A stretch of DNA of 25,979 nucleotides from a virus. Shown piece by piece: positions 1 to 25,979 of the stretch; positions within the stretch are counted from its first letter, which is position 1, and each line of letters begins with the position of its first letter. The notes below the pieces were generated by a model. The model was not told the origin of the DNA. It did no database searches and saw nothing but the letters and a program-made list of their open reading frames with translations. A program made the translations under genes and the position numbers. The DNA lies in the IMG/VR virus record IMGVR_UViG_3300020595_000173, positions 1 through 25,979 of that record; one strand, given 5' to 3'.

Positions 1-2812
1 GATTAATAGTAACTGTATTGATTAAATCTTTTACTGTTCTATTATTAGTATCAAAGTTACCTATAGCAATATTACTATTACCTCCGTGTATTGTTAAATC
101 CTGGCCTATAGCGACTGACTTATTTGAACCACTGATACGGGTGTTTTCACCACCGATAATGGTTGATAACGCGGTATCTTCGCTGATAGACGATGTAGTT
201 GATTGCTGTATAGCACTATTACTTACACCTTGTTCTATAGTGTTTTCAGTACCAGTAACTGTAACAAACTTAGCATTATTTTGAACTAAGTTATTACTAC
301 CTTCTACACGTGCTATTTGTACATTATTTCTAACAATATTATTGTCACCTCTTGTATCAACTGTTTCTGCTGAAATATCTACTTCATTTAAACCTATATT
401 TGTTTGTGAAGTAAACCTTGCATCTGTTGGTTTTAAAGTATTCCATACAACAGTATTATCAGCACCAAACACACTAAATCCATCACGTGAAGCTGCTTGT
501 GGGACTGCTGAACCACTATAATCAGCACCTGTTTCAAAGTCTTCATATACCACAAAACCACTTTCACTAAATCCAGCATCATCAACTGTAATATCAACTA
601 CTGTATCATCTATTGTGATTCGTCTTCTTGGGTATTTTAGTTTACGAGGTAATGATTTAATAAGTTCTACTTCAACACTATCCTCTTTAGTTACGTTAGC
701 ACCTTTAATCTTGTTGATTCTGTAGTAATGACCATCTATAAAAATCTTATCATTAAGTTCAATATCTGGAATCTCGTTAGGTGATAAGAAAATATTTAGT
801 GTAACTAATCTACTATCTACATCGTATAACTCGTTAATATAGAAAGACCAATATTCTTCGAATGCTGTTCTTTTTGTTCTACCATTAAACTGTGATTGAT
901 GATAGTTATAATGTCCTGGAGAATAAGTATTACCAAAATGTAAATCTATTGTATCACTAAAATCAGCAGGTGTAGCTTGTAAGTGTGATGCTAAACCATA
1001 ATCTGATTCTGTATGTACAACATTATTTTCATCTTCAAAGTAATATCTGCTTAATGATGTAAGACCACTTTGTAAAGTTCCTACAACACCATTAGCATCA
1101 AATCTACCATTATGGAATAATAAACGAGGTGCAAACTTAGTTCTTTTAAATCCTTGTGTTGAATCATCTTTTTCTGCTAATACAGGTAAAACAGTAAATG
1201 GTGCACCATCTATACCCTTTAAAGGGGTTGGGGCAAAATATTTACCTATTACTTTTTCACCATCTGCTAAGTCAGATTCTGAAACATAATCAAACTCTCC
1301 ATATATTTTTTCTCGAGTTCTTTTATGGTATTGTATTAATGCTGTATTGTCTTCTACATCTGTAAACTTAATATCTTTAGGTTGGTTTTGTAATGGATGT
1401 GTTATTTGCCATTTCTGGTTATAATCAACTTTACCACTCCAATCAACTATATTTCCAGCATCTATCCAATCATTAAATGTCTCTATTTTAAGTACATTTC
1501 TTTGGTTTTTAACTGGTTCAATAACTAAGTTAAACTTTTCAATCAGACCTTGTAAAAAATCTGTTACACTAACATCTCTGTAAATAGGTGCTAAGTTAAC
1601 ATTACCACCTAAACTTGTAGTTGGTCCTTGTACAAGTTCAAATCTTGTAGATGATGTTGCTAATAATCTTAATGTTTGTGTTCCTGAAGCTGTTTCTGTA
1701 TAAACAACATATACTTCTATATCATCACCTGATGCTAAAGCATAGTTATTAGTTACTATATTCATTAAACCACTTACAGCACCTGTTGAATCAAAAGTAA
1801 ATGAATCAAACTGACTACCATTTTTATAAATGATTATATTGATTTGTCTTGCATCAGCAACAACATTATAGTTTAGGATTTCGTATTTAAACTGAACCTT
1901 AAACTGATAGTTACCATCTATATCAGCTGTAAATGTTGAAGTTGTATTATCGTATTGACCAGCATTATCAAATAACTCTGTTGGGAAGTTTACTTTAGCT
2001 ACTGCTTGTGTATCTGTGTAATCTTGATTTGCATTAGTATATGCTAAGAATGATTGTGATACTGGTGAATCTGATGTAATACCTTTTTTATCATCCTCTG
2101 TAGCTAATAAATAAATATCATCTGTATAACTACCTGAAGTAAATAATGATGAAGTATACTCGTATCCTAAGTTATCAAAAATAACATCTAAACAACTTCT
2201 TACTCTAATAGCAGGTTTAAAATCATCTACTCTAATGGGTGTATTGTAGTTAGAGAATGTCCTTGATTCACCACCACCTTTTATTTGTGTATCTGAAGCT
2301 GTATCAACATCAAATCCATAGTTTACTAAAGGATAAAATACAGCACCATCTAATAATGTCTTATCCCAACTACCAGTAATATTACCATACGTGTAATCGT
2401 GGTCGAGAGACGAGAAATCTAAATCACCAAATGTTACATCTTGAATAAGTGTACCAAAATCTACTGTCTCGTTTACAACAACAACATTGTATAAATCATT
2501 ACCCTGATTATCAGTAATAACACTATCTAAATAAAGTTTACCACTAAATACTTCAGCACCATCTTGTAATATTTGACAAGGTACTGTTTTAGTAAATGAA
2601 GTAGAAGGTGTAGCACCTACATCATACAAGTTACCAAAGAACTCGTTATTGGTTTTAGATGGAGGTAAAGTAAGTTTTTGTGAAGAAACACCAAATACAG
2701 TCCCAATATTACCTGATTCAATAGCTGATATATCAAGTTTAAATGGGGTTGATTCGAGTAAGTCTAAATCATACTTTACTCCATTATCATTTATCGCCCT
2801 TATTATAGTCAT
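1..2812 (-). CDS. Large tail/baseplate structural protein, 3' end beyond left edge
   Basis: The frame is open from an ATG at 2812 to the edge (937 codons). The N-terminal third begins MTIIRAINDNGVKYDL and has the 'LPPSKTNNEFF...' and 'PCQILQDGAEVFSGKLYLDS' type stretches that I associate with a conserved tail/baseplate protein of Bacteroidota phages. The middle is beta-rich. From about residue 800 it turns into short Asn/Gly/Ser repeats of the type SNxAIGxxxxxxGxN, like the beta-roll head of YadA-type adhesins, so the distal part may be a trimeric fibre. Its ATG shares one base with the stop of the preceding gene (TAATG), so translation is probably coupled. The frame continues exactly into the partial gene at the right edge (25765-25979), giving 1008 codons if the window is circular. 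A virion role is well supported; the exact baseplate position is inferred. Confidence 0.85.
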   Translation of the reverse strand, partial: MTIIRAINDNGVKYDLDLLESTPFKLDISAIESGNIGTVFGVSSQKLTLPPSKTNNEFFGNLYDVGATPSTSFTKTVPCQILQDGAEVFSGKLYLDSVITDNQGNDLYNVVVVNETVDFGTLIQDVTFGDLDFSSLDHDYTYGNITGSWDKTLLDGAVFYPLVNYGFDVDTASDTQIKGGGESRTFSNYNTPIRVDDFKPAIRVRSCLDVIFDNLGYEYTSSLFTSGSYTDDIYLLATEDDKKGITSDSPVSQSFLAYTNANQDYTDTQAVAKVNFPTELFDNAGQYDNTTSTFTADIDGNYQFKVQFKYEILNYNVVADARQINIIIYKNGSQFDSFTFDSTGAVSGLMNIVTNNYALASGDDIEVYVVYTETASGTQTLRLLATSSTRFELVQGPTTSLGGNVNLAPIYRDVSVTDFLQGLIEKFNLVIEPVKNQRNVLKIETFNDWIDAGNIVDWSGKVDYNQKWQITHPLQNQPKDIKFTDVEDNTALIQYHKRTREKIYGEFDYVSESDLADGEKVIGKYFAPTPLKGIDGAPFTVLPVLAEKDDSTQGFKRTKFAPRLLFHNGRFDANGVVGTLQSGLTSLSRYYFEDENNVVHTESDYGLASHLQATPADFSDTIDLHFGNTYSPGHYNYHQSQFNGRTKRTAFEEYWSFYINELYDVDSRLVTLNIFLSPNEIPDIELNDKIFIDGHYYRINKIKGANVTKEDSVEVELIKSLPRKLKYPRRRITIDDTVVDITVDDAGFSESGFVVYEDFETGADYSGSAVPQAASRDGFSVFGADNTVVWNTLKPTDARFTSQTNIGLNEVDISAETVDTRGDNNIVRNNVQIARVEGSNNLVQNNAKFVTVTGTENTIEQGVSNSAIQQSTTSSISEDTALSTIIGGENTRISGSNKSVAIGQDLTIHGGNSNIAIGNFDTNNRTVKDLINTVTIN

Positions 2813-4167
2813 TATCTTCTACTTCTTTCACCATTAGCGTATTGATATTGTACTTCATATCTAAATAGCTTTTGGCTACGTGGGTTAGTTTTTTCTGTAA
2901 TACTTGCATTGTTGATTACCACGGGTAAAAACGTTGAACCATCTTGAACATATACGTCCGTGGAAAAGAATAGTTCGCGTAAAATATCCGCGTCTACTTG
3001 CGTTAAATAATCACTATTTGCCGTATGTTGTTTAGTGATACTGTTGTAGTAGTTATTTCTACCTCTACTTGATTTATCATACGCAACACTATTTGTGGTT
3101 GTAGAATAATCTACAAATGCTTCTTTATATTCTTGTCTTTCAACATTTGATGTAGTTGAATCTGCTAATGTGAAGTTAAAGTAATCCCAAACACCATATT
3201 CGTTTTTCCAAGCAAATCTTACTCCTGGGAAATCACAAGCACCAGTATCAATATTAAATGTGTATTCACCCCATACTCCATCAGCATTAACAAATGTATC
3301 AGTAGCTTGGGAGTTAAATGTTAATGTATAATAAGATGTATCTGCTAAAATAGGTACACCTACATCCTCTAAGTTTTGTGGACCAGCTGGATAATGAACT
3401 AAACGTGTAGATTCATCTTGTGAAGTATAAACATCACTCCAAAACTGTGTTTGTGCTGTTCTTAGTCCTGTAAATGTATCGTATAAAATATCTGTATCTA
3501 AAAGTGTACCTGATGAATCGTATTGTCTATAAGTAGCAGCAAATACATCTTGTGCACTATTTGGATTATCACCATTACCTTGTAGATTACCTCTTAAAAT
3601 AGAGATAGTACCATAATCACCTATTTGTACTTTTTGTGTAGTAAAATCTGTTAAACCAAACTGATGATTAAATGTAACATCATCTAATGGGTCTTCTTCA
3701 TTGTATTTTGAACCACTATTCCAGTTCCAATCTATTAAATCATTAGGATTAGCAAATCCATCTAATAAAAAGTTAATCTGTGTAGGAATAGTTACAGCTG
3801 GGTCTCCAACATTAGATGCTACACCAGTATACAATGTAACAGATGATGAAACACTTGTACCATATTCTTCACCAAAGTAAATATTAAAATCACCTCCACT
3901 AAAACTATTTGCTTGTGGGGTAGTTGTTTTCCAAGCTTCATCTGTAGGTCCTAACTGCGAAGGTAAGATTTGCCCTATATCAAATACACCTTTAGATGAT
4001 GGGTTTGGTTGTTGTTTTATTCTTTGGATTAATGTATCACTTTCGTCCTTAATATCTACTACGAACTGAAACTGCGGTTGGGTTACCTCTGTTGAAGTAA
4101 CCTCGTAAACCAAGTTATTGTTCACCATATTGGGACTTGTAGGGTATTGTTGTAATGATGTTGCCAT
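2812..4167 (-). CDS. Tail/baseplate structural protein (451 aa)
   Basis: This is a beta-rich, Thr/Ser/Asn-rich protein with no signal peptide or membrane segment. The C-terminal third carries the pattern RFAWKNEYGVWDYFNF, then RQEYKEAF, then a segment ending in VYVQDGSTFLPVVINNAS and YEVQYQYANGERSRR. I recognise this arrangement from structural proteins that accompany tail completion genes in marine Bacteroidota phages. It sits between an HK97 gp10-like protein and the very large tail protein, with one-base TAATG overlaps on both sides, so the four genes from 5798 downstream form one coupled tail operon. The specific role (baseplate hub, distal tail or adaptor) cannot be settled from sequence alone. 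Confidence 0.8.
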   Translation of the reverse strand: MATSLQQYPTSPNMVNNNLVYEVTSTEVTQPQFQFVVDIKDESDTLIQRIKQQPNPSSKGVFDIGQILPSQLGPTDEAWKTTTPQANSFSGGDFNIYFGEEYGTSVSSSVTLYTGVASNVGDPAVTIPTQINFLLDGFANPNDLIDWNWNSGSKYNEEDPLDDVTFNHQFGLTDFTTQKVQIGDYGTISILRGNLQGNGDNPNSAQDVFAATYRQYDSSGTLLDTDILYDTFTGLRTAQTQFWSDVYTSQDESTRLVHYPAGPQNLEDVGVPILADTSYYTLTFNSQATDTFVNADGVWGEYTFNIDTGACDFPGVRFAWKNEYGVWDYFNFTLADSTTSNVERQEYKEAFVDYSTTTNSVAYDKSSRGRNNYYNSITKQHTANSDYLTQVDADILRELFFSTDVYVQDGSTFLPVVINNASITEKTNPRSQKLFRYEVQYQYANGERSRR

Positions 4168-4514
4168 TATAGTTGTATTGTTAAGTCTACCTCTTTAGGT
4201 AGTGATTTTGCCAAGTCTGCTGATACATCTTCTGCTGCAGCTAATGCTATATCGTTTATTTCTTTTCCTATAACATTTGTTTGTGCACGTTCAATGAACT
4301 TTTGTGCTGTTTGAAACTTAGTACCTAAATCTGGAAATATATAGTAGTTTAGTAATGAAATAGGTGCTTCAATACCTTCAGGTGATTCAGTAGCGGATTG
4401 TGCTTTAACACTACGTTTTAATCTACCAGTATCAACAGGAGATAGCTTACGTATCTCTGCTGCTAACTCTTTATTTACTTTATTTATTTCGTTTTCTAAG
4501 TTATTAAACTCCAT
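4167..4514 (-). CDS. HK97 gp10-like tail completion / head-tail joining protein
   Basis: The 115 residues begin with an amphipathic helix (ENEINKVNKELAAEIRKL) followed by SPVDTGRLKRSVKAQ. The 'PVDTGRLRxS' motif is the hallmark of the HK97 gp10 family, which joins or finishes the tail at the neck. A later 'YYIFPDLGTKFQTAQKFIERA' segment matches the usual 'xxExGTxxxxAxPFlxpA' part of that family. Length is normal. The gene lies between a tail-terminator-like gene and a larger tail protein, the expected place, and both junctions are TAATG overlaps. Confidence 0.8.
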   Translation of the reverse strand: MEFNNLENEINKVNKELAAEIRKLSPVDTGRLKRSVKAQSATESPEGIEAPISLLNYYIFPDLGTKFQTAQKFIERAQTNVIGKEINDIALAAAEDVSADLAKSLPKEVDLTIQL

Positions 4515-4957
4515 TATTGTGGGAAGTTACAATAGTTGTAAACTGCGTCTTCTGTTATTGTTATATTTGCTGCCCAACCAAAAGCCCTATCGTTAAATGC
4601 TTCGTTAACTGGAATAATATTACTTAATGTAAAATCTATACCATAAGGTGTTTGTGCATTATTAAATCGCATATAACCTAAAACATCATAAATGTATAGT
4701 TCTGTATTTGATTTAACTTCTACTGCAGGTGCATTGCTTAGTTTTGGTACATCTAAACTATAAAGTTCAAATGCTAATGTTCTAATATTACCACTTAAAC
4801 CAGGAGAGGTTAATGGGCGTAAGAACATAAATGGGTATTTAATGTTTTGGCTATTTGAATCTAAGTACGACAATGGACCTTCAGCAAATGATTGTATTGC
4901 TAAATGTGCTGTTGTTGCTTCTTCAAAATAACCAACTATGTCTTTATAAGTATTCAT
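4514..4957 (-). CDS. Tail terminator / tail completion-like protein
   Basis: The 147-residue protein starts MNTYKDIVGYFEEATTAHLA. It then has a KYPFMFLRPL strand, a central 'FELYSLDVPKL' strand, and a C-terminal 'NDRAFGWAANITI...YNYCNFP' segment. This is the fold order and motif set of the tail-terminator-like protein found next to gp10 homologues in many Bacteroidota phages. It would cap the tail tube during assembly. The ATG at 4957 overlaps the stop of the -1 reading frame of the upstream chaperone gene as TAATG, the same junction used between the next three genes, which argues that the -1 frame is the functional upstream end. Family assignment is by pattern only. Confidence 0.7.
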   Translation of the reverse strand: MNTYKDIVGYFEEATTAHLAIQSFAEGPLSYLDSNSQNIKYPFMFLRPLTSPGLSGNIRTLAFELYSLDVPKLSNAPAVEVKSNTELYIYDVLGYMRFNNAQTPYGIDFTLSNIIPVNEAFNDRAFGWAANITITEDAVYNYCNFPQ

Positions 4958-5798
4958 TATTTTATTCTATATTGACGTTCTGTCTGTTTTCTAATCTGTT
5001 CATCCCTCTTGTTCTTATCTTGTTCGTAAGCGAGGAAGTTAAATACGAAGACGATATTGCAGTCCAAGATACTTCTTTCTCCATTGATTGATAAGATGGA
5101 TGTTGAAGCCAGGTAATGAAGCGTAGCAAACCATCCCCAGTGTTCACTGTAGCCATCTGTTTGTTCATCTTCTCCACTTCCATCATCTGTTGTTTGGGTG
5201 GGAGAGAAGAGAGATTCGAACTTGCGGAGAAGTAAGCTGCGAGAACTAAAAAAAAACTTAACGCACCTAATCCAATAGAGGCTGGAATGTTAGATAATGT
5301 TTTAGCTTGTGCTTCTCTTTTACTATTATCGTACTTTTCTACTTCATAGTACTTAAATAGATTTTCTGCTTCACCTAATGCTACCTTATATGTTGATTTA
5401 AAAGCCCATTTGATACCGCTAAACTTATTTTTTACAATAGGGCGATATAGTATAGCCATTATTTCCTCGAGGTTTTCATTCGGATTTTTCGCAAGCCTCT
5501 CTAAGTCAATATACTCGCCTGTAGTCATACTTGTAAGCGATTTAAACCCATATTTTACACCATCTAAATCAAATATAGGATAGAACTGCGGTGTTAAATC
5601 TTCAAACGAAGATAATAATGTAGCATACACTTGTTGTAATGCTGTTGGTGTATACTCTTTTACTTCATCAATGTCCTTACCTCCCATTTTAGAGATTAAA
5701 GATACCATTTTCTCGCTTTCATTTAAATGTTCAAGCGAGTTAAAGTATTTCCAATCTGCGATTGAAAGGTATTCTGGTATTTGTATTTGTATCTTCAT
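4957..5798 (-). CDS. Tail assembly chaperone, predicted -1 frameshift fusion (280 aa)
   Basis: A shift of -1 at U UUU UUA (5253-5247) joins the 183 N-terminal residues to 96 residues in the -1 frame, ending at TAA 4959-4957. The -1 extension contains GYSEHWGWFATLHYLAS and FNFLAYEQDKNKRDEQIRKQ, which looks like a folded helical domain and resembles the 'GWxxxLxxLA...LxYLxxxKD' tail of this family. The extension has no ATG or GTG and an in-frame TAA lies 12 codons before the slip run, so it cannot be made except by frameshifting. Its stop overlaps the next gene as TAATG. By analogy with lambda gpG-GT, the fusion would load on the tape measure. A missing or extra T in the run is the alternative explanation. 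Confidence 0.7.
4962..5798 (-). CDS. Tail assembly chaperone, zero-frame product (278 aa)
   Basis: The N-terminal 180 residues (MKIQIQIPEYLSIADWKYF..., VKYGFKSLTSMTTGEYIDLERL, MAILYRPIV) match a widespread Bacteroidota phage protein that fits a tail assembly chaperone (lambda gpG-like). A run of nine T on the coding strand (5256-5248) encodes part of SFFLVL. In frame zero the protein continues 94 more residues, including NTGDGLLRFITWLQ, a segment resembling the usual end of short family members. The last 95 codons overlap an equally long open -1 frame (see the fused product at 4957-5798). Base use in the overlap is less AT-rich than in neighbours, as expected when two frames are constrained. 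Start ATG 5798 follows 113 bases without a gene. Confidence 0.75.
   Translation of the reverse strand: MKIQIQIPEYLSIADWKYFNSLEHLNESEKMVSLISKMGGKDIDEVKEYTPTALQQVYATLLSSFEDLTPQFYPIFDLDGVKYGFKSLTSMTTGEYIDLERLAKNPNENLEEIMAILYRPIVKNKFSGIKWAFKSTYKVALGEAENLFKYYEVEKYDNSKREAQAKTLSNIPASIGLGALSFFLVLAAYFSASSNLSSLPPKQQMMEVEKMNKQMATVNTGDGLLRFITWLQHPSYQSMEKEVSWTAISSSYLTSSLTNKIRTRGMNRLENRQNVNIE
5247..5256 (-). other. Programmed -1 frameshift slippery site (T9, U UUU UUA)
   Basis: The coding strand reads AAG, nine T, then AGT. Zero-frame codons are AGT TTT TTT TTA GTT, giving the X XXY YYZ heptamer U UUU UUA at 5253-5247, the same heptamer used by HIV-1 gag-pol. Tandem slippage leaves both tRNAs fully or nearly paired with UUU UUU. 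I saw no convincing downstream stem-loop or pseudoknot within about 50 bases. Confidence 0.65.
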
Positions 5799-5911
5799 AC
5801 GATAATAAATATGTATATGTTATGTTTTAGCCTCGGTAATAACTATTAGTGTTTTTCTGTAGAATAAGGAAACCCGCATAAGCGGGCAACCTAAATCTTA
5901 GACGTCTAAAT
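5799..5911 (-). terminator. Short intergenic region with a weak terminator-like hairpin
   Basis: A perfect CCCGC-TTAT-GCGGG hairpin (5873-5877 with 5882-5886) lies just after the stop of the 66-residue gene on the minus strand and is followed by only three T. It may be a weak terminator for the small-gene cluster. A TTG (5889-5887) and TATTCTAC (5866-5859) separated by exactly 20 bases straddle this hairpin. The spacing equals that of the other promoters here, but the -7 element is poor, so it is only a possible promoter for the tail operon at 5798. Confidence 0.4.
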
Positions 5912-6112: not shown

Positions 6113-6113
6113 A

Positions 6114-6676: not shown

Positions 6677-6681
6677 AGCGA

Positions 6682-7042: not shown

Positions 7043-8284
7043 TTAATATGCTTTAACACTACCACCAATATATAACTTATTTTTTGCACCTCCAAGCATA
7101 TTATTTCTTGCTTGATTAGCTAACCACAATGAATCAACACAATCGTCTTTAAATCCATTAGGGTGGCTAAATGATAGTTTACCATTAGCACTCGTTTTAT
7201 AAGTATAGGCTGATAGTTCGTTATATAAATGTGGGAATAAATCTTTACTTGGTAACTCTAATATTTGATTTTCAATATCCTGAATCAATGCCCTAACTGC
7301 TGTTAGTTTTGTATCTTGTGTCGTTATGAATGGGCTACACTTAACACCACTTTTCCTGACTTGTTCAAAGATAGCCTTACCGATTCCATTAGTTTCAATA
7401 TTTCCTCCTCTGACATTGTATCGTCTGCAATGATTGATGATAATGTTTCCAGCTTCTTCAAATGATTTCCCATTAAATCTATCAATGAACGCTGTTCGTC
7501 CAGATTCGTCAAGGATTGTAAGCACGGTATAATCATCAGAGAGTCCAATGTCAAGTCCAAAATAATATTTTGTGCTTCTTCTCGGTTGTTCATAGTTATT
7601 TATATTACAAACTAAATCTATTCCCCTAAACACATCATTAGTTGCTTCTGAAAACTGTGCTAAGTATTCTTGTGCAAATATATCTGCAGGAAGTGATTTG
7701 GCTTGTTCGTTAATAAAATCGACATCAATATACGGGTTATCCGTGGAAATACCTGCAAAACTAATGTAGTCACTACCTCCGTCGATGCCCTTAAGGTAAT
7801 ACGTATAAAACCAGTTTTTTGACTTAGGAGTAGATATAATAAGACATTTTTTTCCTAATGCTGATAATGTAGGGAATATTGCCTCGTTAACTGCATCCTC
7901 CTTAATAAATGCTGCTTCGTCAATCACTACATAGTTAAAACTAAAACCCCTGATACTATCATAACGTTCACTACCAAAGAACTGAATAGTAGAACCATTA
8001 ATAAATGTAATAGTTAAATCTGCTTTATTACTTGATTTAATGATTTTATTTGATGCTGCTTCAAGTTCATTAAATACCTTTTTTGCTTGGGTAAAAATGG
8101 GGCTAAAGAAACCTGCTTTTTGATTTGGTTTAGATAATAACCAATACAACATTAGGTTTTGTGCTAATAATGATTTACCAAACTGCCTACCACAAGATAC
8201 TATACCGAACTTATGTTCGCTATCAGCAAAACCATTAATGACTTTCTTTTGCCCTAAGTGTGGTGTGAATAAAGTTACGTTCAT
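7043..8284 (-). CDS. terL: Terminase large subunit
   Basis: This 413-residue protein is the ATPase and nuclease of the packaging motor that fills proheads through the portal. The Walker A motif is GRQFGKS (residues 32-38), Walker B is YVVIDEAAF (about 118-126) and the coupling motif is STPK (151-154). The nuclease domain follows, with acidic residues in FGLDIGLSDD (Asp245), NIETNG (Glu297) and GFKDDCVDSL (Asp380/381/384), the usual RNase H-like triad. Length is normal. ATG 8284 overlaps the upstream stop as ATGA. It is separated from the portal gene by about 10 kb, which is unusual. Hairpins follow its stop. Confidence 0.95.
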   Translation of the reverse strand: MNVTLFTPHLGQKKVINGFADSEHKFGIVSCGRQFGKSLLAQNLMLYWLLSKPNQKAGFFSPIFTQAKKVFNELEAASNKIIKSSNKADLTITFINGSTIQFFGSERYDSIRGFSFNYVVIDEAAFIKEDAVNEAIFPTLSALGKKCLIISTPKSKNWFYTYYLKGIDGGSDYISFAGISTDNPYIDVDFINEQAKSLPADIFAQEYLAQFSEATNDVFRGIDLVCNINNYEQPRRSTKYYFGLDIGLSDDYTVLTILDESGRTAFIDRFNGKSFEEAGNIIINHCRRYNVRGGNIETNGIGKAIFEQVRKSGVKCSPFITTQDTKLTAVRALIQDIENQILELPSKDLFPHLYNELSAYTYKTSANGKLSFSHPNGFKDDCVDSLWLANQARNNMLGGAKNKLYIGGSVKAY

Positions 8285-16015: not shown

Positions 16016-18088
16016 TTAACTAAAGTTTGCTAATCCTGTTGCTTGCAATGTTGTACCATCAAATGATACTAATGTTAAGATATCTACTTCACCACTACCA
16101 GTTGAAATAGTAAATGCTGTTCCTCCTGGGAAATCTATTGTTGAAGCATATGTTAAAGTAGCTGCTGAAGCATTTTGTGTAATCTTAATATTGATTGTTT
16201 GACCAGCTGTAATATTTGAAGGTGTTAAAACTGTTGTTCCTCCTGCAGGCATTGCTAATGTAAAATAGTTACCTACTGAACAATCTAATGCTGTTGTACC
16301 ACCTGAATCACTTATTGTATTTACTGCACCTGTTAACTGACCATCTATCTCTGTATCACCTAATGTCTCTGCACCTTCAATAACATATAATGTATTTGCA
16401 TCTGGTGTTAAGGCATCATATTCTGCTTGTGTTAAGTGAATGACAGTATTTACTGCATCTTCTGATGAAACAGCTGATTGACCAACATTATTAAGTAGTG
16501 TACCTGTATTTGTACCATCATCAACTAATGTATCTCCATAGATTGATAGGTGTTTTACTACTACTTCATCTGCTTTAGTTGTAGCTAATCCTGTACCACC
16601 TATAATAGCACTTCTAGCATGTGATGTTGTATTACTACTACCACCTAATAAGGCATTATGACTACCTGCTGTTGAAGTATTACTTTCTCCTCCAATCATT
16701 GCCCTATAGTTTCCATCACCAGAAATCTGTAATCCATATCCAAAGATTACATTAGCACCAGTAAAGTTTCCATTTACACCATTATCTCTACCAATAACAA
16801 AGTTATCTTGTCCATTACCTAAAGTTCTGTTATTGTTGTTTCTACCAATACTAATAGAAGCACCTTTACCTGAAACATTATCTCTACCAATAATCACACT
16901 ACCAAAAGAGTTTCCATCTGTTGATGGTGTATTACTAAATCCAACATTAGCTATGTTAATAACTCTACTTGATACACCATCACCCACATGAAGCACACCA
17001 TTAAGTGTCATATCTTCTGTAGCTGTATTCCCATTATCTAAAACATCTTGTAAAGTTGGGGTTGTAGCAATACCTGTTAGTTGTGAACCATCACCTATAA
17101 ATGCTGAAGCACTAACATATCCTGAAGCACTTACATTAGCATCTATTGTAACTAATGTTCCATCATCACTAATGCTTGAATCTATAAGTTGGTGATGACC
17201 ACCACCTTTTTGTAATGTGTTTACTGTAGGTTCTACTTCACTACCTTTTGAACCAGTAGGACCTGTTAATACAACACCACTATTACCTGATTCTTCTACA
17301 ATAACCCAGTTATCACTTAAACCATCCCATTCAAATGAAGCAGTAGCTGGAGTACCTGAACCTGAATCATATACTACTAAACCAGCATATCTTGCTGTTG
17401 GTGTATCAGCATTTAGAATAATAAACTCGTCTCCAATGATTACTGCTGAACCTGTTACTGTTCTTAAACTTCCAATACTTGCTGAAGTAAATGAAGCAAA
17501 ACTTGCTGTAATGCTATTAATATTAATATTAGCATCACTTGGTAAATCTAAAGCTAATGAAGCTGTATCTGCATTTACTGCATGTGAAGCACTTGTAGCA
17601 TTGGCTACATTATCTACTACTAAGTCAAATGTTGAAGCATCACCTTTTGTGAATGTTAAAGTAGCATCTGTAGCACTACCTGTAACCATAAAGCTACCTG
17701 TATCAATAGGTACTACATTTAAAGCAAATGATGCTGTAGTAGCAAATGATGCTGTACCTTCAAAGTTAGGTGCAGTTAATGTTTCTGTAGATGGATTATA
17801 GTTTAAGCTATTATTAGCAAGTAAACTATTATATCCAACACCTCCAGCTGGATTAAATGTTGGAATAGTAAGGTCTAAGTTATCACTTGTACCCTGAATA
17901 TCAATCTTATCAGCATTTGAAGCTGTTGCAGCATAAGAAGCACTTAAAGCATTATCTGCGTATGATGCTGTTACATCTAATGATGATATTAAGCTACCGC
18001 TACCATCTGTTAGTTGGTTTGACCCACTAATCTGGACTAATCCTTCATAGCTGTCTTTAATATTTAATGGTCCTAAGTTTCTTCCCAT
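16016..18088 (-). CDS. Tail fibre protein (690 aa)
   Basis: The N-terminus (MGRNLGPLNIKDSYEGLVQIS) probably attaches to the baseplate. A repetitive Ala/Ser shaft follows, with 'TASYADNALSASYAATASNA' type repeats to about residue 205. At 328-340 is SAFIGDGSQLTGI, a motif of many marine phage fibres. Residues 395-500 are YadA-like beta-roll repeats (SVIIGRDN, SISIGRNN, NFVIGRDN, NALLGGSSN, SAIIGGTG). HLTQAEYDAL...NTLYVIEG (551-571) is another common fibre motif, and the last 85 residues form a beta-sandwich tip. The protein is almost certainly trimeric. It starts one base past the connector gene stop, so the fibre operon continues directly from the head genes. Confidence 0.85.
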   Translation of the reverse strand: MGRNLGPLNIKDSYEGLVQISGSNQLTDGSGSLISSLDVTASYADNALSASYAATASNADKIDIQGTSDNLDLTIPTFNPAGGVGYNSLLANNSLNYNPSTETLTAPNFEGTASFATTASFALNVVPIDTGSFMVTGSATDATLTFTKGDASTFDLVVDNVANATSASHAVNADTASLALDLPSDANININSITASFASFTSASIGSLRTVTGSAVIIGDEFIILNADTPTARYAGLVVYDSGSGTPATASFEWDGLSDNWVIVEESGNSGVVLTGPTGSKGSEVEPTVNTLQKGGGHHQLIDSSISDDGTLVTIDANVSASGYVSASAFIGDGSQLTGIATTPTLQDVLDNGNTATEDMTLNGVLHVGDGVSSRVINIANVGFSNTPSTDGNSFGSVIIGRDNVSGKGASISIGRNNNNRTLGNGQDNFVIGRDNGVNGNFTGANVIFGYGLQISGDGNYRAMIGGESNTSTAGSHNALLGGSSNTTSHARSAIIGGTGLATTKADEVVVKHLSIYGDTLVDDGTNTGTLLNNVGQSAVSSEDAVNTVIHLTQAEYDALTPDANTLYVIEGAETLGDTEIDGQLTGAVNTISDSGGTTALDCSVGNYFTLAMPAGGTTVLTPSNITAGQTINIKITQNASAATLTYASTIDFPGGTAFTISTGSGEVDILTLVSFDGTTLQATGLANFS

Positions 18089-18089: not shown

Positions 18090-18707
18090 TTATTCTATGT
18101 TTGAACCCCAAGGGTATTGTGAATATGCACTATTTGTTACTCGTAAACCGTTTTCTTTAGCCCACTTAAAGTTACCTGCTTGTTTAGTTGATTTATTAAA
18201 TACAACAGGTGAACGATATTGTGTACTATAGTCTGGGTTTTGTTCGTATGCTTTATTGTTTTCACTTAGTTCTGGGAATGTGTTTTCATTCTCTGAAATA
18301 TATTGTGATAACTTTTCAGCATAAAACTCTTGTTTATTTTCTACGCTTTGTCTTTTTACATTAAATAAACTTCTATCTACTTCAATAGAGTTTTCGCCAC
18401 CAGTTGGTGTCAATAATCCGTTGTTTCGCGGGCGTATATAAATGGCCTCTAATGTTTCATAGTATGCCGCGTATAATAAGAAGTCTTGTATATAATCATT
18501 TACTAACGTTTCATAAGCACTACTTGTCCAACTATCAGCATCAATCTGTGATAGAATAGAGTTATATAGTTTTGTACCTATAATACGTTGTAAGTGAATA
18601 TCTTGTGCTTCGCGAATAGCATTTTTGATTAAAGCAGTATCCAACATATCATTTACGTCGGTAAACTGTCTAAACTTTGCTTCGCTTAAAATAAAGGTTG
18701 ATGTCAT
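18090..18707 (-). CDS. Head-tail connector protein (DUF6712-like)
   Basis: The 205-residue protein is helical at the start: FILSEAKFRQFTDVNDMLDTALIKNAIREAQDIHLQRIIGTKLYNSIL. The 'I..AQ..hlq..lG..Ly..i' pattern and the later YIQDFLLYAAYYETLEAIYIRP helix match the DUF6712 / head-tail connector group of Bacteroidota phages, gp6-like adaptors that sit below the portal ring. The tail (DRSLFNVKRQSVENKQEFYAEKLSQYI) also fits. The ATG overlaps the portal stop as ATGA, as expected for proteins that assemble together. Confidence 0.75.
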   Translation of the reverse strand: MTSTFILSEAKFRQFTDVNDMLDTALIKNAIREAQDIHLQRIIGTKLYNSILSQIDADSWTSSAYETLVNDYIQDFLLYAAYYETLEAIYIRPRNNGLLTPTGGENSIEVDRSLFNVKRQSVENKQEFYAEKLSQYISENENTFPELSENNKAYEQNPDYSTQYRSPVVFNKSTKQAGNFKWAKENGLRVTNSAYSQYPWGSNIE

Positions 18708-19948
18708 AATGTTGGAAGTTCTGTTATTGGTTCGTTTAAGTTGCCCTCTGCCTCTCTATCAGCTTCCTCTATTTCAGCCTCTAAAGTAGCATCATCACCT
18801 GCTTCCGCTTCTGTTGAAGTAACTACATCGTACTCTTCTTCTCCATCAGCAAATAACTTAAGTTGTTGAATACCTAATGTTATTTCTTCTGCGGGGAACA
18901 TTGCGTTTAACAGCGTTTCAAAACAATATAATATGTCCTGCTGATATGGTCTTATTACTGTGTTTAATAACAGTAAATACGCGTCTAACATTTCATCTCT
19001 ACCACCTAGTTGTCCTGATGTTTTAATACCAAGAATCATTGGAGAAGTAATCCTGTGTGCAGTTAATATCTTTTGTACTACCATTTCATTTACATTGTAA
19101 TAGTAGTCATCTGCCCCATTTTGTGGGATTGGTGTTATGTCTGGTTTGTTTTCTGGAGAATCAACATCCATGTATAATAAACTACCTGCATTATTTGAAC
19201 CTGCATATTGTAGTTGTAACATTCTTTCGATTGCTTCTCTTTCCTCTTCATCAGCGTTTGTATAAGTTGTAATCGCTAAAGAAGGTGCTAAACCATTTTT
19301 AATGTTGTTAATGTGGAAGTTATCTACCTCTGTATCTAAATCGATTACTCTTAATGCACCGACATAATCAGGTAATGGATAGTACTTCATACCAGGACGA
19401 TACGGATTATACACGTATATTTGGCGTGGTTCTGCCTCGTTGGTATTTGGGTTGTAAACAGGTAGGCATGGCAAATCTGCCACGGATTTTCCTGTGTATC
19501 TGTATTGGGTAGCCCATTCGTCACTAATGTAGTAACCTGGAATCTTACCTCTATAATCTTTTTCTTTTGCCCTTAGGAATGAATAGTCAATATGGTATAC
19601 TTCTGCTATGGCTGTTCTTGCTTTATTCCAAATAACTTCTAAACTGAAGCCACCATATAGCTTATAATCTTGTGCTACCTTTTTAAATATGTTATTCCAA
19701 GTCTCTCCGTCTCTATTTGCTTTCTCTAATACATAATCTGGTTCAGCTACTAAGCCTTCACCTACAATACCATCTACAATAGCGTTTACACACGTATTGT
19801 GGATAGAGGAGTTATTATATAGTTCGATTAGTTCTTCTGGGAAACTATTATGGAGACCAAACTTAACAAAATCCTTACCCTTTTCTTCCTGGATATAGAC
19901 TCTGTCTGTTGTTTGTTTTGCTATGCTTGAAAACTTAAGTTTATCCAT
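18704..19948 (-). CDS. Portal protein
   Basis: The 414-residue protein matches PBSX-like phage portals: KFGLHNSFPEELIELYNNSSIHNTCVNAIVDGIVGEGL (31-68) is the conserved opening of the portal fold, DYKLYGGFSLEVIWNKA lies in the clip/wing, and MVVQKILTAHRITSPMILGIKTSGQLGG gives the stem region. A helical, acidic C-terminus follows (EAEAGDDATLEAEIEEADREAEG). It forms the dodecameric ring through which DNA enters. Unusually, it lies after the capsid and tube genes and about 10 kb from the terminase. It overlaps the 148-residue gene by eight bases. Confidence 0.9.
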   Translation of the reverse strand: MDKLKFSSIAKQTTDRVYIQEEKGKDFVKFGLHNSFPEELIELYNNSSIHNTCVNAIVDGIVGEGLVAEPDYVLEKANRDGETWNNIFKKVAQDYKLYGGFSLEVIWNKARTAIAEVYHIDYSFLRAKEKDYRGKIPGYYISDEWATQYRYTGKSVADLPCLPVYNPNTNEAEPRQIYVYNPYRPGMKYYPLPDYVGALRVIDLDTEVDNFHINNIKNGLAPSLAITTYTNADEEEREAIERMLQLQYAGSNNAGSLLYMDVDSPENKPDITPIPQNGADDYYYNVNEMVVQKILTAHRITSPMILGIKTSGQLGGRDEMLDAYLLLLNTVIRPYQQDILYCFETLLNAMFPAEEITLGIQQLKLFADGEEEYDVVTSTEAEAGDDATLEAEIEEADREAEGNLNEPITELPTL

Positions 19949-20387: not shown

Positions 20388-20398
20388 AGAAGGTATCA

Positions 20399-20445
20399 AA
20401 AAAAGATTAAGGGGGCACGCTTAAATACGAAACCCCCTTAGTCTT
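20399..20445 (-). terminator. Intrinsic terminator after the tail tube gene
   Basis: On the minus strand a 13-base stem (AAGACTAAGGGGG with CCCCCTTAATCTT, 20445-20433 and 20415-20403, one mismatch) closes a 17-base loop and runs into seven T (20404-20398). It is the clearest terminator in the window. It probably limits expression of portal and fibre genes compared with the abundant capsid and tube proteins upstream. On the plus strand the mismatch is a U.G pair, so it could also stop antisense transcripts. Confidence 0.8.
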
Positions 20446-20455
20446 ATTGTTTTTA

Positions 20456-20995
20456 TTAACTTAAAGTAATGCCGCTTAGTGCATCACCTAAGCTTCCTGA
20501 TATTTCAGAAGCTGGTTCTGGTTCTTGACCAGTGAAGGTTAAAGAGTAGCCATTTAAATCGCCGAAAGCTGTTCCTGTGGCACCTGTGCCGCTTAACAAC
20601 TGTACGCCGTTTTCCTCGCCTAATAACCAGTATCTACCAACGCCGTCTTGCGAACCGTTGTTAGTTTCTACGATGATTTTTAAGTCTGGATTTTTAGCTA
20701 ATACTCTAACTTGGTTACGTGTAGAGGATTGTAGTTTGAAGAATACTGCGTTAACGCTTTGTTCGTAAAATACAGTTCCGTTTTCTGGTGTAGCTGAAAT
20801 AGCTTCACTGAAATCAGAAGTTTGACGGAACAACTCGTATTGGAAGAACTCTCCTGAACCTGTAATCCCACTGATTAACCCTTCACTTGCGTCTGTAACG
20901 CTGGTGATTGAACCAGATAGAATGTATAGGTTTTTAATACCGCCAGTGTTGTCTCTACAACCTAACGTAAATCCTGAAGTTATATCACATGACAT
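20456..20995 (-). CDS. Probable tail tube protein (179 aa)
   Basis: The protein begins MSCDITSGFTLGCRDNTGGIKNLYILSG, the 'CDxTxGxxxxCkDnxGGxkxxYi' opening I recognise from an abundant small virion protein of Bacteroidota phages. A beta-rich body follows (FQYELFRQTSDFSEAIS, GTVFYEQSVNAVFFKLQ) and a closing 'GTAFGDLNGYSLTFTGQEPEPA'. This order fits a tail tube subunit that polymerises around the tape measure. It follows the capsid gene and is followed by the strong terminator, consistent with high expression. Homology to tube proteins is inferred from pattern and position. Confidence 0.65.
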   Translation of the reverse strand: MSCDITSGFTLGCRDNTGGIKNLYILSGSITSVTDASEGLISGITGSGEFFQYELFRQTSDFSEAISATPENGTVFYEQSVNAVFFKLQSSTRNQVRVLAKNPDLKIIVETNNGSQDGVGRYWLLGEENGVQLLSGTGATGTAFGDLNGYSLTFTGQEPEPASEISGSLGDALSGITLS

Positions 20996-21061
20996 AGTTT
21001 ATCTGGTTTTATTTAATATTAGAGGGGAGTATTTCATCCCCTCCTCTATTAAGGGTTATTA
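20996..21061 (-). terminator. Hairpin between capsid and tube genes
   Basis: On the minus strand AGAGGAGGGG-ATGAAATAC-TCCCCTCT forms a GC-rich hairpin right after the capsid gene stop, followed by an AT-rich but not T-only stretch. It may act as a partial terminator or protect the capsid mRNA end. Confidence 0.45.
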
Positions 21062-21970
21062 TTATGCTACATCGTTACTTACCCAAAACTCTGGATAAGC
21101 GATGTTTACTCCTAACTTAGTAGCGATTCTGTGACGTAGTTGGTCTGTGTTAATGTCATACCAAAGTTGAAACTCTGAAAAATCTGACATTAAATCAGTA
21201 CCTGCAACGATTTGCTTAGCAGGCCCTACTACGATTCTACCTGAACCATTCAATCCTGAAGTACCTACAACTTTTACACCTGGTGCAAATGGGTAAGCGA
21301 TTTCCAAGATACCACCTCTGTTAGAGATAGAAGCTGGGTCAAAGTAATAGTTATTAGCTGTTCTAAGTGCAGCGATGAAAGTACGGAACTTAGAAACTGA
21401 CATGAAGAAAGTTAAATCTTCTCTATCTGCTACATCATCAGAAAGTGCAGCTAACATAGTGTCCATGTTTGCTAAAGTAGCGTCTGCAGTACCTGCAACA
21501 ACTACACCAGCAGTTGAACCTGAAATAGTTGCAATCAAACCAGTACCACCATCAGTACAACCAGCATCACCATTCCATAAAAATGAATCATTTGATTTTT
21601 GAAACTGATTTACTAATAGTTCAGAATATGCTTCTGCAGTTTTGAAAGTAGTATTGTAGCTACCTGGTTCGAGGTCTGCAATACCTAAGTAATACTTATC
21701 CATGTCTTTAAGGCATATGCCGTCAAAGCTGGTACGTGGACATACTGTGATGTTACGTTGTGAATAAGTTAATGAACCTGAAGGTGTAGATACACAAGTA
21801 CCATATTGTACTTGAAGGTCTACCTCCATAAGGTTGATTGGTTCTTGGTGCTTAACACCTTCTTTTACGGTTACATATTCCATAGTGGAACCTCCGTAAA
21901 CGATTTTTGGTAGCAATAAGCCGGCTACTTCGTTATTAAACGCCGACAGTGCTGATACATCTAAAGCCAT
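21062..21970 (-). CDS. Major capsid protein (HK97-fold)
   Basis: The 302-residue protein begins MALDVSALSAFNNEVAGLLLPKIVYGG. The central and C-terminal parts (SELLVNQFQKSNDSFLWNG, ADREDLTFFMSVSKFRTFIAAL, SGRIVVGPAKQIVAGTDLMSD, FQLWYDINTDQLRHRIATKLGVNIAYPEFWV) have the spine-helix, P-domain and final strand order of HK97-fold capsids in Bacteroidota phages. Four Cys residues (for example GTCVSTP, NITVCPR) are more than usual and could form disulfides that stiffen the shell. No N-terminal delta domain is seen; a separate scaffold gene lies directly upstream. Confidence 0.85.
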   Translation of the reverse strand: MALDVSALSAFNNEVAGLLLPKIVYGGSTMEYVTVKEGVKHQEPINLMEVDLQVQYGTCVSTPSGSLTYSQRNITVCPRTSFDGICLKDMDKYYLGIADLEPGSYNTTFKTAEAYSELLVNQFQKSNDSFLWNGDAGCTDGGTGLIATISGSTAGVVVAGTADATLANMDTMLAALSDDVADREDLTFFMSVSKFRTFIAALRTANNYYFDPASISNRGGILEIAYPFAPGVKVVGTSGLNGSGRIVVGPAKQIVAGTDLMSDFSEFQLWYDINTDQLRHRIATKLGVNIAYPEFWVSNDVA

Positions 21971-21975
21971 AATGT

Positions 21976-22734
21976 TTAGTTTTGTTTGTTTTTAAGTTGT
22001 TGAATAGCTAACTTGATTCTGTCAGCGTTAGCAGCTGATTCTATCGAGAACGATTGAATGTTGTTTTTAGGTTGGTATGAAGACATTTCTGATTTCACTG
22101 AAACAGAATCCATAGCAGGTGCATTTTCATACGATGCCATTTTTTCTTTAAGTGATTTCATTTCTTCCTTCATCTTACCTAACTCTTCTTTCATAGCTTC
22201 TGCGATTTCTGCAATGATAGCTTCAGTGTCAACTGCAGGCATTTCTACCTCCATATCTTCTTTAACTACTTCCGCAACAGCTTCTTTGATATCTTCAATA
22301 GCATCTTTCATGCCATCCTTGTACCCTTCTTCTTCAGCGTCAGTTCTTGCATCAAACTCTTCTGCCATCTCTGAATCTACATCTTTTTCTTCTTCGCCTG
22401 CCTCTACTTTAGAGATACTTTCAACGATTGAATCTTTAGTTTCGATAGTAATACCATCAGCAAGTTTGTGCATTCCATCCGGCGCATCCATTTCCTGATT
22501 ATCAGTAGTTACTACGCTTACTTTATCACCTACTTCAAGTTCATCACCTGGAAACTTAAGGACAAATGCAGAGTTTTCATCAGCGATTTCGCCAAATACC
22601 TCTGCTACTTCTTCAGTTACAGCTTCTTCACTAAAAGTTTGTGTAGATTCTTCGTTTACGATTTCTTCAGTAGCAGCAACCTCTACAAGTGAAAAATGTG
22701 ATTTCACGAGTTCTTTAAGTTCATTAGAAGTCAT
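21976..22734 (-). CDS. Capsid scaffold-like protein (252 aa)
   Basis: The protein is very acidic (Glu/Ala/Val-rich) with a small folded segment at 57-100 (FVLKFPGDELEVGDKVSVVT, GMHKLADGITIETKDS). A long acidic coil covers about 110-200, with KEELGKMKEEMKSLKEKMASYE as the clearest coiled coil. The C-terminus is basic and helical (ADRIKLAIQQLKNKQ), as expected for a scaffold that binds the capsid shell and is removed by the protease. It sits between the XkdF protease and the capsid protein, the normal place. An HNH gene on the other strand separates it from the protease. Confidence 0.7.
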   Translation of the reverse strand: MTSNELKELVKSHFSLVEVAATEEIVNEESTQTFSEEAVTEEVAEVFGEIADENSAFVLKFPGDELEVGDKVSVVTTDNQEMDAPDGMHKLADGITIETKDSIVESISKVEAGEEEKDVDSEMAEEFDARTDAEEEGYKDGMKDAIEDIKEAVAEVVKEDMEVEMPAVDTEAIIAEIAEAMKEELGKMKEEMKSLKEKMASYENAPAMDSVSVKSEMSSYQPKNNIQSFSIESAANADRIKLAIQQLKNKQN

Positions 22735-22839
22735 ATATTCTAAATATTTAATAGGTTAATACTTACATCCCTAAAGGGGTGCGTATATAAATATAAGGAA
22801 AGATTGCCTCGGTGAACTTTTTTTCGTATATTACACTAT
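22735..22839. promoter_or_regulatory. Divergent intergenic region with plus-strand promoter P5
   Basis: Promoter P5 is TTG (22804-22806), exactly 20 bases, then TATATTAC (22827-22834) on the plus strand, with TTCG before the -7 element. The HNH ATG starts five bases after the -7 element, so the predicted mRNA would have almost no leader. A short CCC-TAAA-GGG hairpin (22769-22778) lies on the scaffold side. No comparable promoter was found for the minus-strand scaffold gene. Confidence 0.6.
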
Positions 22840-23214
22840 ATGAAGCAGTTTAGAGATACACCATATTATATTACAGAAGAGGGTAAAGTGTTTAGATACT
22901 ATCCTGAACGTAAACATATTTACAATAAAGGTTATATAACCAAACCTGAAAAGTATAAAGAACTAAAACCAGGTACCCAATCAATGGGATATAAACAAGT
23001 TGTATTACACGAAGGATTCTCTAAACCTACATCTTGTAGAGTTCATAGATTAGTTGCTGAACTATATGTTCCTGGATATTTTGAAGGTGCACACGTAGAC
23101 CATATTGATTGTAATAAATCAAATAATCATCCTAATAATCTACAATGGTGTACTAAAGAATATAATAATAAAAAAGGTAATAATCCTAACTATCCTTTAT
23201 TCGTCCAGATTTGA
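22840..23214 (+). CDS. HNH homing endonuclease (NUMOD4-HNH)
   Basis: The 124-residue protein has an N-terminal NUMOD4-like segment (MKQFRDTPYYITEEGKVFRYY), then the HNH core: VHRLVAELYVPG (68-79), VDHIDCNKSNNHPNNLQW (86-103) and the EYNN end (107-110). Catalytic His residues lie at 69 and 88 and the Asn at 99-100. It is the only plus-strand gene, placed between the protease and scaffold genes with its own promoter P5, which fits a mobile freestanding homing enzyme. Its 3' end overlaps the 44-residue minus-strand gene by 25 bases, so the last residues are antisense-coded with that gene. Confidence 0.85.
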   Translation: MKQFRDTPYYITEEGKVFRYYPERKHIYNKGYITKPEKYKELKPGTQSMGYKQVVLHEGFSKPTSCRVHRLVAELYVPGYFEGAHVDHIDCNKSNNHPNNLQWCTKEYNNKKGNNPNYPLFVQI

Positions 23215-23324
23215 TAGCACACAGCAGTTGCTTGTGATTTATCCCGCCCTTCCTTTTCAATAAGTTCTGGGATGCATCTATTGATGAACTCTTCTTGTCT
23301 TTCATTTAGTAGTGGTGTAGGCAT
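23190..23324 (-). CDS. Small MPTP-motif virion-module protein (44 aa)
   Basis: ATG 23324 (MPTPLLNERQEEFINRCIP) to TAG 23192-23190, starting one base after the protease stop. The pattern 'MPTPxxNExxxxFixRCixxlixe...AvCyxiW' is well known as an N-terminal module of phage portal- or protease-associated proteins, usually fused to larger proteins. Here it stands alone after an XkdF-like protease that carries other modules of the same group (CATRVGKVRAQQLANRE and DACQPGYKAIGLK...PNCVP). The role is unknown. The end overlaps the HNH gene of the opposite strand, which may have trimmed it. Confidence 0.7.
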   Translation of the reverse strand: MPTPLLNERQEEFINRCIPELIEKEGRDKSQATAVCYQIWTNKG

Positions 23325-23325
23325 A

Positions 23326-24354
23326 TTATTTTACTTTTGATAACATCATTTCAGCGAATAGACCTTCAACACTTAGCCCTAATACTTTACCTGATTTAAT
23401 GTAGTTATTCCAAATATCTTTATTATCGATTTTGTATTTAGCAAACCAAGTTCCATCTGGTAAGTTGTAACCATAGTTTTTAGACTTATCATTGTCACTT
23501 TCTTTAGTCCAAGTTTCAACCATAAAAATATCATCAACTAAGTTACCATCGTGTTCAATATTTACTCTATGGATAACTTCATCTTTCATTGCTTTATGGG
23601 CAAGTTTTTCAATAGTTTCCTTTGTAAAGTAAACATAATATTCACCATCAGCATCTCTACGTTTGATTAACTTGTTAGGTATCATTAATGGAGAGATAAC
23701 TACTTGTTGTTCGTCCATAGCAGCAAATGATTCTTCAACTTCTTTTAGTTTAGACATTTCCTGCTTGATAAGTTCTTCAGTAATAGCTGCTTCAAAGTTC
23801 TGAATAGGAACGCAGTTAGGTACTTTTCTACCATTCTTAGTTTTTAGTCCTATTGCTTTATAGCCTGGCTGGCAAGCATCATCTAAATCGTTGTATTCTT
23901 CCTTTACAAACTCTTCACCTGCTTGTCTTAGTTTCTTTTCTGCCCAACTAAGTGCACTTGGACCTCCCCAAAGTAAATAGCTAATATAACCACAAGCATC
24001 GTAGTTTTTTCTATCACGTTGTAGTTCATAGTTGTCACGTTGTCTTATTAGGAAACTACGCATTCTTCGTACGGTATCAAGCGATATCGCTTCGCGGTTG
24101 GCAAGCTGTTGGGCCCTAACTTTACCTACGCGAGTAGCGCATTTATTTCCTGTTGCTTCATTTCTTTTGATTCCTTGTTTAGCTGCATTAACTGCTGCTT
24201 CTGGGTAATCAGTAAATGTTTCAGCAAATGATTCTGCATTTGGTTTAGCGAAGTATAGGAAATCTTCTTCTATTGCTGGTTGTTCTACTAATGCGACAGC
24301 ATCTATACCTGCTAATACGCTATTTTCATCTATGTCTAACTTTACAATCTTCAT
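23326..24354 (-). CDS. XkdF-like prohead protease with extra domains (342 aa)
   Basis: The N-terminus (MKIVKLDIDENSVLAGIDAVALVEQPAIEEDF) matches the start of Bacteroidota phage head proteases. Residues 66-148 hold a module with KCATRVGKVRAQQLANREAIS and ACGYISYLLWGGPSALSWAE, and 160-184 a second one (CQPGYKAIGLKTKNGRKVPN). The XkdF serine protease domain spans about 220-335: SPLMIPNKLIKR, FTKETIEKLAHKAM, VNIEHDGN, VETWTKESD, GTWFAKYKID, and VLGLSVEGLF. His268 and Ser328 are candidate catalytic residues. It should cleave scaffold and capsid proteins during maturation. Confidence 0.85.
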   Translation of the reverse strand: MKIVKLDIDENSVLAGIDAVALVEQPAIEEDFLYFAKPNAESFAETFTDYPEAAVNAAKQGIKRNEATGNKCATRVGKVRAQQLANREAISLDTVRRMRSFLIRQRDNYELQRDRKNYDACGYISYLLWGGPSALSWAEKKLRQAGEEFVKEEYNDLDDACQPGYKAIGLKTKNGRKVPNCVPIQNFEAAITEELIKQEMSKLKEVEESFAAMDEQQVVISPLMIPNKLIKRRDADGEYYVYFTKETIEKLAHKAMKDEVIHRVNIEHDGNLVDDIFMVETWTKESDNDKSKNYGYNLPDGTWFAKYKIDNKDIWNNYIKSGKVLGLSVEGLFAEMMLSKVK

Positions 24355-24366
24355 ACTAATAAATAT

Positions 24367-25761
24367 TTATGGGAACTGTCTTCTCGTTTGTAATAATGTT
24401 TCTGCTTCTAAACCATTTGATACATCACCTGCTAAAACATAAGCCCTTACAGGTTGTGATTGTGATAATGTAGGTGTTAATGTACCTGTTGCACCTCCTA
24501 TTGTTGTTGTTCCTATACCAAATGAAGTATTAGGAATACCTCCTCCTCTTGGAGTATTAGGGGCTGCTGTATCACCTGGTTCTGTACTGTTAATCTGTCT
24601 TAAAGAAGCTGCTGTTGTAGCTGCTAACAAAGCAAACTGCGTAGCCTGATAAGCAATAGCAAATGGACCTGTTGTTTGCGAGTTTTTAATAATACCAACA
24701 CCTGCTTGTGCTGCATCAATAAGTACGTTAGCTGATGCTATAGCTTTATTTTCTCCGAATAATGCACCTAATGCACCTTGTAGATTATCAATACCATCTG
24801 TAAGTAATAGTTCTTTATACTCTTGTTCGGCTTGATTTATTGCCCGTATCTTATCACTTTTAGCTTTTTCTATTTGAACCTCTGTAGCAGCTTGGGCTGT
24901 TTTAGCATCAATAAGTTTTAAACCACTATCAGCAAGTTCAGTATCTAATGTTATTTCCTTTTTCTTAAGGTCAAGTTTTTCTTCTTGGAACGTTTTATAC
25001 TTATTATCTTGTTCAAGTTGTTTTTGTGCTGTTTCATCTGCAATAATACCTGCCTGGATAACTTGATTTAATACATCTTTTGCTTGTTCTAAAGCTATTT
25101 TTCTTGCTTCAACACCTTCTTCATTTACTTTTAAGGCATTTTGTTCACGTGCTAATCTATCCTCTGCAAGCTTAATATCTGCTTCTGCTTGTTGTCTGGC
25201 TATTACAAGTTGTTCTTCTAATGTTCTATTATAAGCATCAGCTGTTGCTTGAATATTTTTTAATCTTGCTTCACCACCAGTAATAGCACGTTCAGTATTC
25301 TTGATTAACTCGAGTTGTTCAGTATATAACTCGTTTGTTGTTTTTATTTCTTCTTGGTTATTCTGTTGTCTTTTTCTTAGTATAAGAAATGCTGCAGATA
25401 AAGCAGCTACTGCTGTAACTACTAAACCAATAGGATTTGCCCTTAATACTGCATTATATATTCTCTGTGCTTTAGCTAATAAATCAGTCTCTGTAGCTAA
25501 TACTCTAAATCCTTCAAGTGCACGTTTAGAACCTTCTGCTAACGCAATAGCACCAACTGCTGCTGTCTGGAAACGTTCAGCTTGTTCCTCTGTAACAGCA
25601 CCTGTAATAGCTAATCCCCCAGCAAGTGTAGCAATACTACCACCCACTAAGTTAATAGCACCATCAAGGGTTTTAATGTTATTTTCTAACCTATTTACCT
25701 GCTGTTCCGCATCCTGCGTATTCGCATTTATGTCAATATTGACTGTTTGTGTTGTTGCCAT
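24367..25761 (-). CDS. Tape-measure-like tail protein (464 aa)
   Basis: The start MATTQTVNIDINANTQDAEQQVNRLENNIKTLDGA is the usual opening of tape measure proteins. A hydrophobic region follows (GGSIATLAGGLAI, ANPIGLVVTAVAALSAAFLIL, about 110-130), then a long coiled-coil section (about 140-330) and a Gly/Ala-rich end closing AYVLAGDVSNGLEAETLLQ. At 464 residues it is short for a siphovirus or myovirus tape measure, implying a short tail by the rule of about 1.5 angstrom per residue. It could instead be an internal virion protein. It starts three bases after the tail protein stop at 25765. Confidence 0.75.
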   Translation of the reverse strand: MATTQTVNIDINANTQDAEQQVNRLENNIKTLDGAINLVGGSIATLAGGLAITGAVTEEQAERFQTAAVGAIALAEGSKRALEGFRVLATETDLLAKAQRIYNAVLRANPIGLVVTAVAALSAAFLILRKRQQNNQEEIKTTNELYTEQLELIKNTERAITGGEARLKNIQATADAYNRTLEEQLVIARQQAEADIKLAEDRLAREQNALKVNEEGVEARKIALEQAKDVLNQVIQAGIIADETAQKQLEQDNKYKTFQEEKLDLKKKEITLDTELADSGLKLIDAKTAQAATEVQIEKAKSDKIRAINQAEQEYKELLLTDGIDNLQGALGALFGENKAIASANVLIDAAQAGVGIIKNSQTTGPFAIAYQATQFALLAATTAASLRQINSTEPGDTAAPNTPRGGGIPNTSFGIGTTTIGGATGTLTPTLSQSQPVRAYVLAGDVSNGLEAETLLQTRRQFP

Positions 25762-25764
25762 CTG

Positions 25765-25979
25765 TTATGCTTTTTTCTGTGTTATAAACCAAGAACCACT
25801 TGTTGGGGCGTATAGTGTAACACCTTCAAAGGCTTTATTAACTAAATAGTTACCTCCTAAGGCACCATCTATTGAATCTGTTGATTGTGCTGTTATCTCT
25901 ATTTTATCATTTGCGTTAACTGTATTATCACAAATAAATCTAAGTTCTCTTTTATATCCTTGTGAATCTCTACCTGTAA
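25765..25979 (-). CDS. C-terminal part of a tail protein, 5' end beyond right edge
   Basis: The 70 visible residues (TGRDSQGYKRELRFICDN...KIEITAQSTDSIDGALGG...GVTLYAPTSGSWFITQKKA) look like the beta-sandwich end of a tail or appendage protein. The upstream part is outside the window. If the window is circular, the frame continues exactly into the gene at 1-2812, whose last visible residues are KDLINTVTIN, and the two form one 1008-residue protein. The tape measure gene starts three bases after its stop. Confidence 0.75.
   Translation of the reverse strand, partial: TGRDSQGYKRELRFICDNTVNANDKIEITAQSTDSIDGALGGNYLVNKAFEGVTLYAPTSGSWFITQKKA

Follow-up and report, generated by a model that had tools for sequence, protein, structure and literature searches.

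Does a metagenomic viral contig whose two ends share a reading frame represent a complete circular genome? The question is raised by the window, i.e., the whole of record IMGVR_UViG_3300020595_000173 (25,979 bp, not excised from a longer record), for which the earlier note had proposed such a circle on the grounds that the minus-strand frame leaving base 1 continues in the one entering at base 25979. The arithmetic of this proposal holds: minus-strand bases 2812 to 1 followed by 25979 to 25765 amount to 3,027 bases, which is divisible by 3, and the sole stop is at the terminus; translation gives the claimed 1,008 residues, made up of 937 full codons on the base-1 side, the codon CTT formed at the join and 70 codons from the 25979 side. 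The operon spacing is likewise as described, with the minus-strand gene at 24367-25761 beginning three bases past the stop of the joined frame. At the junction itself, a direct join would read ...ACTATTAATC followed by TTACAGGTAGAG... (written also as ACTATTAATC-TTACAGG). A frame match of this kind is, by chance alone, a 1-in-3 event.

The gene content (Table 1) leaves the general nature of the window clear: it carries genes for a terminase large subunit, a portal protein, a head protease and a tail, as do Caudoviricetes, and it can be identified from these as a near-complete tailed phage genome. Between 9 and 16 kb no replication gene was recognized, and most genes in that region had no match to PHROG or, for the larger ones, Pfam profiles.

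Table 1. Features of the window, in order of position.
Feature	Coordinates	Strand	Evidence or remark
Tail-appendage (tail tip or fibre-like) gene, N-terminal 937 codons	1..2812	-	Open frame off base 1; PHROG 38559, E 5.2e-12; left end cuts the gene
Tail completion or Neck1 protein	4167..4514	-	PHROG 5, E 1.6e-7
Terminase large subunit	7043..8284	-	PHROG 2, E 8.7e-55; Pfam Terminase_6N and Terminase_6C above cut-off
Two DUF6884 genes	8281-8928 and 9340-9804		Adjoin the terminase gene
GIY-YIG endonuclease	10190-10687		N-terminal part like endonuclease VII/HNH profiles
690-aa tail protein with Phage_tail_C	16016..18088	-	Pfam PF24243, 35.6 bits (cut-off 23.7)
Portal protein	18704..19948	-	PHROG 11226, E 2.2e-41
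HNH endonuclease	22840-23214	+	In antisense orientation to the operon; flanked by the protease gene and the one next to it
Head maturation protease (Peptidase_S78_2)	23326..24354	-	Pfam PF14550, 53.7 bits (cut-off 24)
Probable tail tape measure protein, 464 aa	24367..25761	-	PHROG 3336, E 6.8e-6; profile match to the P12024S ORF at 30227, E 2e-13
Tail-appendage gene, C-terminal 70 codons	25765..25979	-	Right end cuts the gene; aligns with contig L002
Natural variant	25976		Four bases from the right end; window as in L010, different from L002 and L009

The window has no repeat at its termini: its first and last 1,000 bases have no exact word longer than 11 bases in common, and the one of that length lies away from the ends. 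In CheckV, a DTR complete genome is one whose contig starts and ends with the same direct repeat, 20 bp or longer; according to its authors, a repeat of k-mer length remains where the assembler opens a circular template, and replication via concatemers yields the same signal (PMC8116208). Lacking a direct repeat of 20 bp or more at its two ends, the window falls outside this definition of a closed genome.

What lies between the ends can be read from L002 (IMGVR_UViG_3300020185_000789), a 10,205-bp contig found by a search with the left-end protein. Its bases 1-3082 align with window 3082-1 at 99.58% identity, without any difference over the last 1,500 window bases at the left end, while its bases 3326-4297 (99.28%) and 4297-10205 (98.58%) align with the window from 25979 down to 19227. 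It crosses both window ends, and 243 bases (81 codons) separate its two matches, window base 1 corresponding to L002 3082 and the right-end piece beginning at L002 3326. The alignment to this contig, of the same species, shows the window ends flanking one gene and neighbouring each other. That gene is open throughout in L002 (1,089 codons), and both half-genes of the window belong to it. The window ends join in frame because the missing stretch is 243 = 81 x 3 bases, and the join itself is, on this alignment, a coincidence.

Two further contigs overrun the right end, both carrying there what L002 has: L009 (IMGVR_UViG_3300020187_000665), which matches window 16114-25979 (9.9 kb) at 99.52% and starts inside the 243-bp segment, by 181 bases, and L010 by 124 bases. 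Together with L002, these near-identical or module-identical contigs extend past the window ends with sequence absent from it, and the complete 25,979-bp circle falls with this; a longer contig continuing past either end with different sequence was what the earlier note itself had named as telling against closure. In the last 1,000 bases the sole mismatch between the window and L009 is base 25976, where the window agrees with L010's GTTACAGG. Since this base is shared with L010, whose flank beyond the right end is L002-type sequence, the right end of the window reads as a natural continuation of the 243-bp segment. We infer from these relatives that the window's own genome has the same 243 bases; with the L002 segment added it comes to 26,222 bp, within the size range of the family.

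Each of these contigs also differs from the window in its own way. L010 is 98.2% identical to the window over 25753-25979 (L010 1-351, the C-terminal part of the tail gene) as against about 72% elsewhere, with an abrupt fall in similarity where the tape-measure gene begins, and this end of its tail gene appears to be a recombined tail module. The tape-measure gene of L002 carries an extra 66-bp (22-residue) tandem copy at about 4297-4362 (window 25008-25074), giving 486 versus 464 residues, which, if real, would mean a slightly longer tail. This duplication shows that length variants occur in the species, and thus the true gap could differ from 243 bases. HNH-sized ORFs are found in the same place in L002 and L009, with none among the listed ORFs of L010.

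At its C-terminal end the L002 tail protein forms a single domain, some 135 residues long. This domain recurs intact in ten divergent homologues, picked up when the fetched loci were searched with an iterated profile; in each of them, 71-83 residues occupy the stretch that the window lacks, and 54-75 more, matching the window's tail piece, come next. The 81 residues absent from the window include about half of one such domain. A predicted structural model based on twelve sequences (pLDDT averaging 72, with weak values over the N-terminal 44 residues and high ones along most of the domain strands) has the domain extending across the gap, the missing block contributing four of the nine strands. 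Its best matches among solved structures are a tailspike depolymerase, a phage capsid spike, the T4 baseplate and the CBA120 tailspike 4, at modest TM-scores near 0.40-0.46; as these matches cover 119-182 aligned columns of the 164-residue model, they span both sides of the gap. Among 50,697 phage records the tail protein had no match. Given that the domain crosses the gap, a direct join would leave half a domain, and the native form of the protein is very probably not the joined one of 1,008 residues.

These observations bear on the possibility that the circle is exactly 25,979 bp, its tail gene having undergone a real in-frame 243-bp deletion relative to L002 such that the ends abut. The preserved frame and the sensible end of the protein would fit such a deletion, as would the existence of other length variants in the species, e.g., the 66-bp duplication. 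However, it would have taken about half of a domain that stays intact in all ten homologues, and its breakpoints have no bases in common at the joint, i.e., no microhomology; the shared base at 25976 beside an L002-type flank in L010 speaks against it as well, as does the lack of an end repeat where the relatives that close have 69-315 bp. Such a circle is therefore improbable, and it is just as doubtful that the truncated C-terminal domain would be a natural variant coexisting with the full-length form.

The circularity of the map itself can be approached through more distant relatives. Terminase relatives gave 62 loci, and eight long records of 22-29 kb were then read. All eight share 13-19 genes each with the window, on one strand, in what is a perfect rotation of its joined gene order; the relatives' orders are thus rotations of one another. 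Three of them have exact end overlaps, of 121 bp (circle of 26,275 bp), 69 bp (27,456 bp) and 114 bp (24,160 bp), while a fourth record (29,347 bp), which also opens in the tail gene, ends in repeats of 315 bp that are 99% identical. With L002 linking the two window ends across 243 bases, it is well supported by these alignments that the ends are neighbours on a circular map.

An ordinary linear fragment, whose ends would share a gene by chance or be the physical ends of a linear genome, would agree with the missing terminal repeat, but L002, almost identical on both sides, crosses the site of the ends, which contradicts this reading unless L002 is misassembled; moreover, several relatives run unbroken from the tail gene through the tape measure gene to the protease gene, with gene orders that are rotations. 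We consider it very unlikely. An integrated prophage or plasmid-like element, rather than a free tailed phage, is no less far-fetched, for although plasmids too have circular maps, the window encodes a terminase, portal, protease, tape measure protein and tail proteins, neither a host flank nor an integrase is seen in it, and no relative of its terminase or portal was found in 84,980 species genomes. Thus, of the circular genome first proposed, the circular map stands, borne out by the L002 bridge, the eight rotations and the four self-overlapping relatives, but the direct join and the 25,979-bp length do not in the face of L002, L009 and L010. Of the grounds given for it, the adjacency of two tail-gene halves beside the tape measure gene was sound, whereas the in-frame argument carried little weight.

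The reading we favour, with a probability of about 0.93, is that the window is a metagenome contig covering about 99% of an uncultured tailed phage's genome, the map of which is circular and about 26.2 kb long, with about 243 bases missing between its ends and the break lying in the tail-appendage gene. The assembler may be seen as having opened the circle within the variable C-terminal part of this gene and left it unclosed, the cause being possibly strain variation or a module shared among co-occurring strains. Probably, the contig broke at a tail module that is nearly identical among such strains but has different flanks, as the case of L010 would suggest. A hot spot of contig breaks in the tail gene was also considered: 12 of the 44 full contigs chosen by their terminase end in or just past its N-terminal part, but these ends are spread along it and the signal is not clear enough.

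The virion DNA of tailed phages is linear. The circular map would then most likely reflect circularly permuted, terminally redundant DNA or concatemers, and the virion DNA of this phage would be linear, circularly permuted and packaged by a headful mechanism rather than physically circular. The terminase is of the Terminase_6N/6C family, with P23-45-like and T4-like hits, and headful packaging would fit this kinship, the one argument for it. More generally, contig ends that join in frame are weak evidence that a genome is complete, because any gap of a multiple-of-three length looks alike; a bridging contig of the same species and relatives with rotated gene orders are far stronger tests of completeness.

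With respect to known viruses, the closest kin are themselves uncultured. L002 and L009 share the window's gene order at 98.6-99.6% DNA identity and, by this measure, all three are the same species; L009 derives from metagenome 3300020187, sampled at Kabeltonne in the North Sea (PMC10327091). L002 differs in its 243 more bases across the ends and its tandem copy in the tape-measure gene, and both are 10-kb fragments in contrast to the near-complete window. The four relatives with overlapping ends, G001, G004, G005 and G006 (behind L013, L042, L029 and L023; 24-29 kb; overlaps of 121, 69, 315 and 114 bp, respectively), have the cyclic gene order and similar size of the window, with terminases 59-67% and portals 60-75% identical to its own; these overlaps close the four, whereas the window ends do not overlap. 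In G004 and in a further relative, G002, a weak DUF6884-like match lies within or beside the protease reading frame.

A megablast of the window found no match among the 50,697 phage records, and profiles of its terminase and portal found no relative in the 84,980 species genomes, which is why no host is named. Among named phages, the closest in its structural genes is Nonlabens phage P12024S (genus Inhavirus, NC_018271), from which a flavobacterial host might at best be guessed. At 35.7 kb, it is larger than the window and has many replication genes without a match there; the window's terminase profile gave no hit in it, and the two terminases are not recognizably related. A place in this genus would call for shared terminase and replication genes, whereas only structural genes match here, the portals being only 29% identical. 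Nevertheless, profile or tblastn matches show that protease, p179, portal, p205, neck, tail gene and tape measure follow one another in P12024S in the same cyclic order. The window and its relatives can be seen as a small family of 24-29 kb tailed phages for which no cultured member was found, otherwise ordinary, with a circular map and with structural genes distantly like those of this flavobacterial phage.
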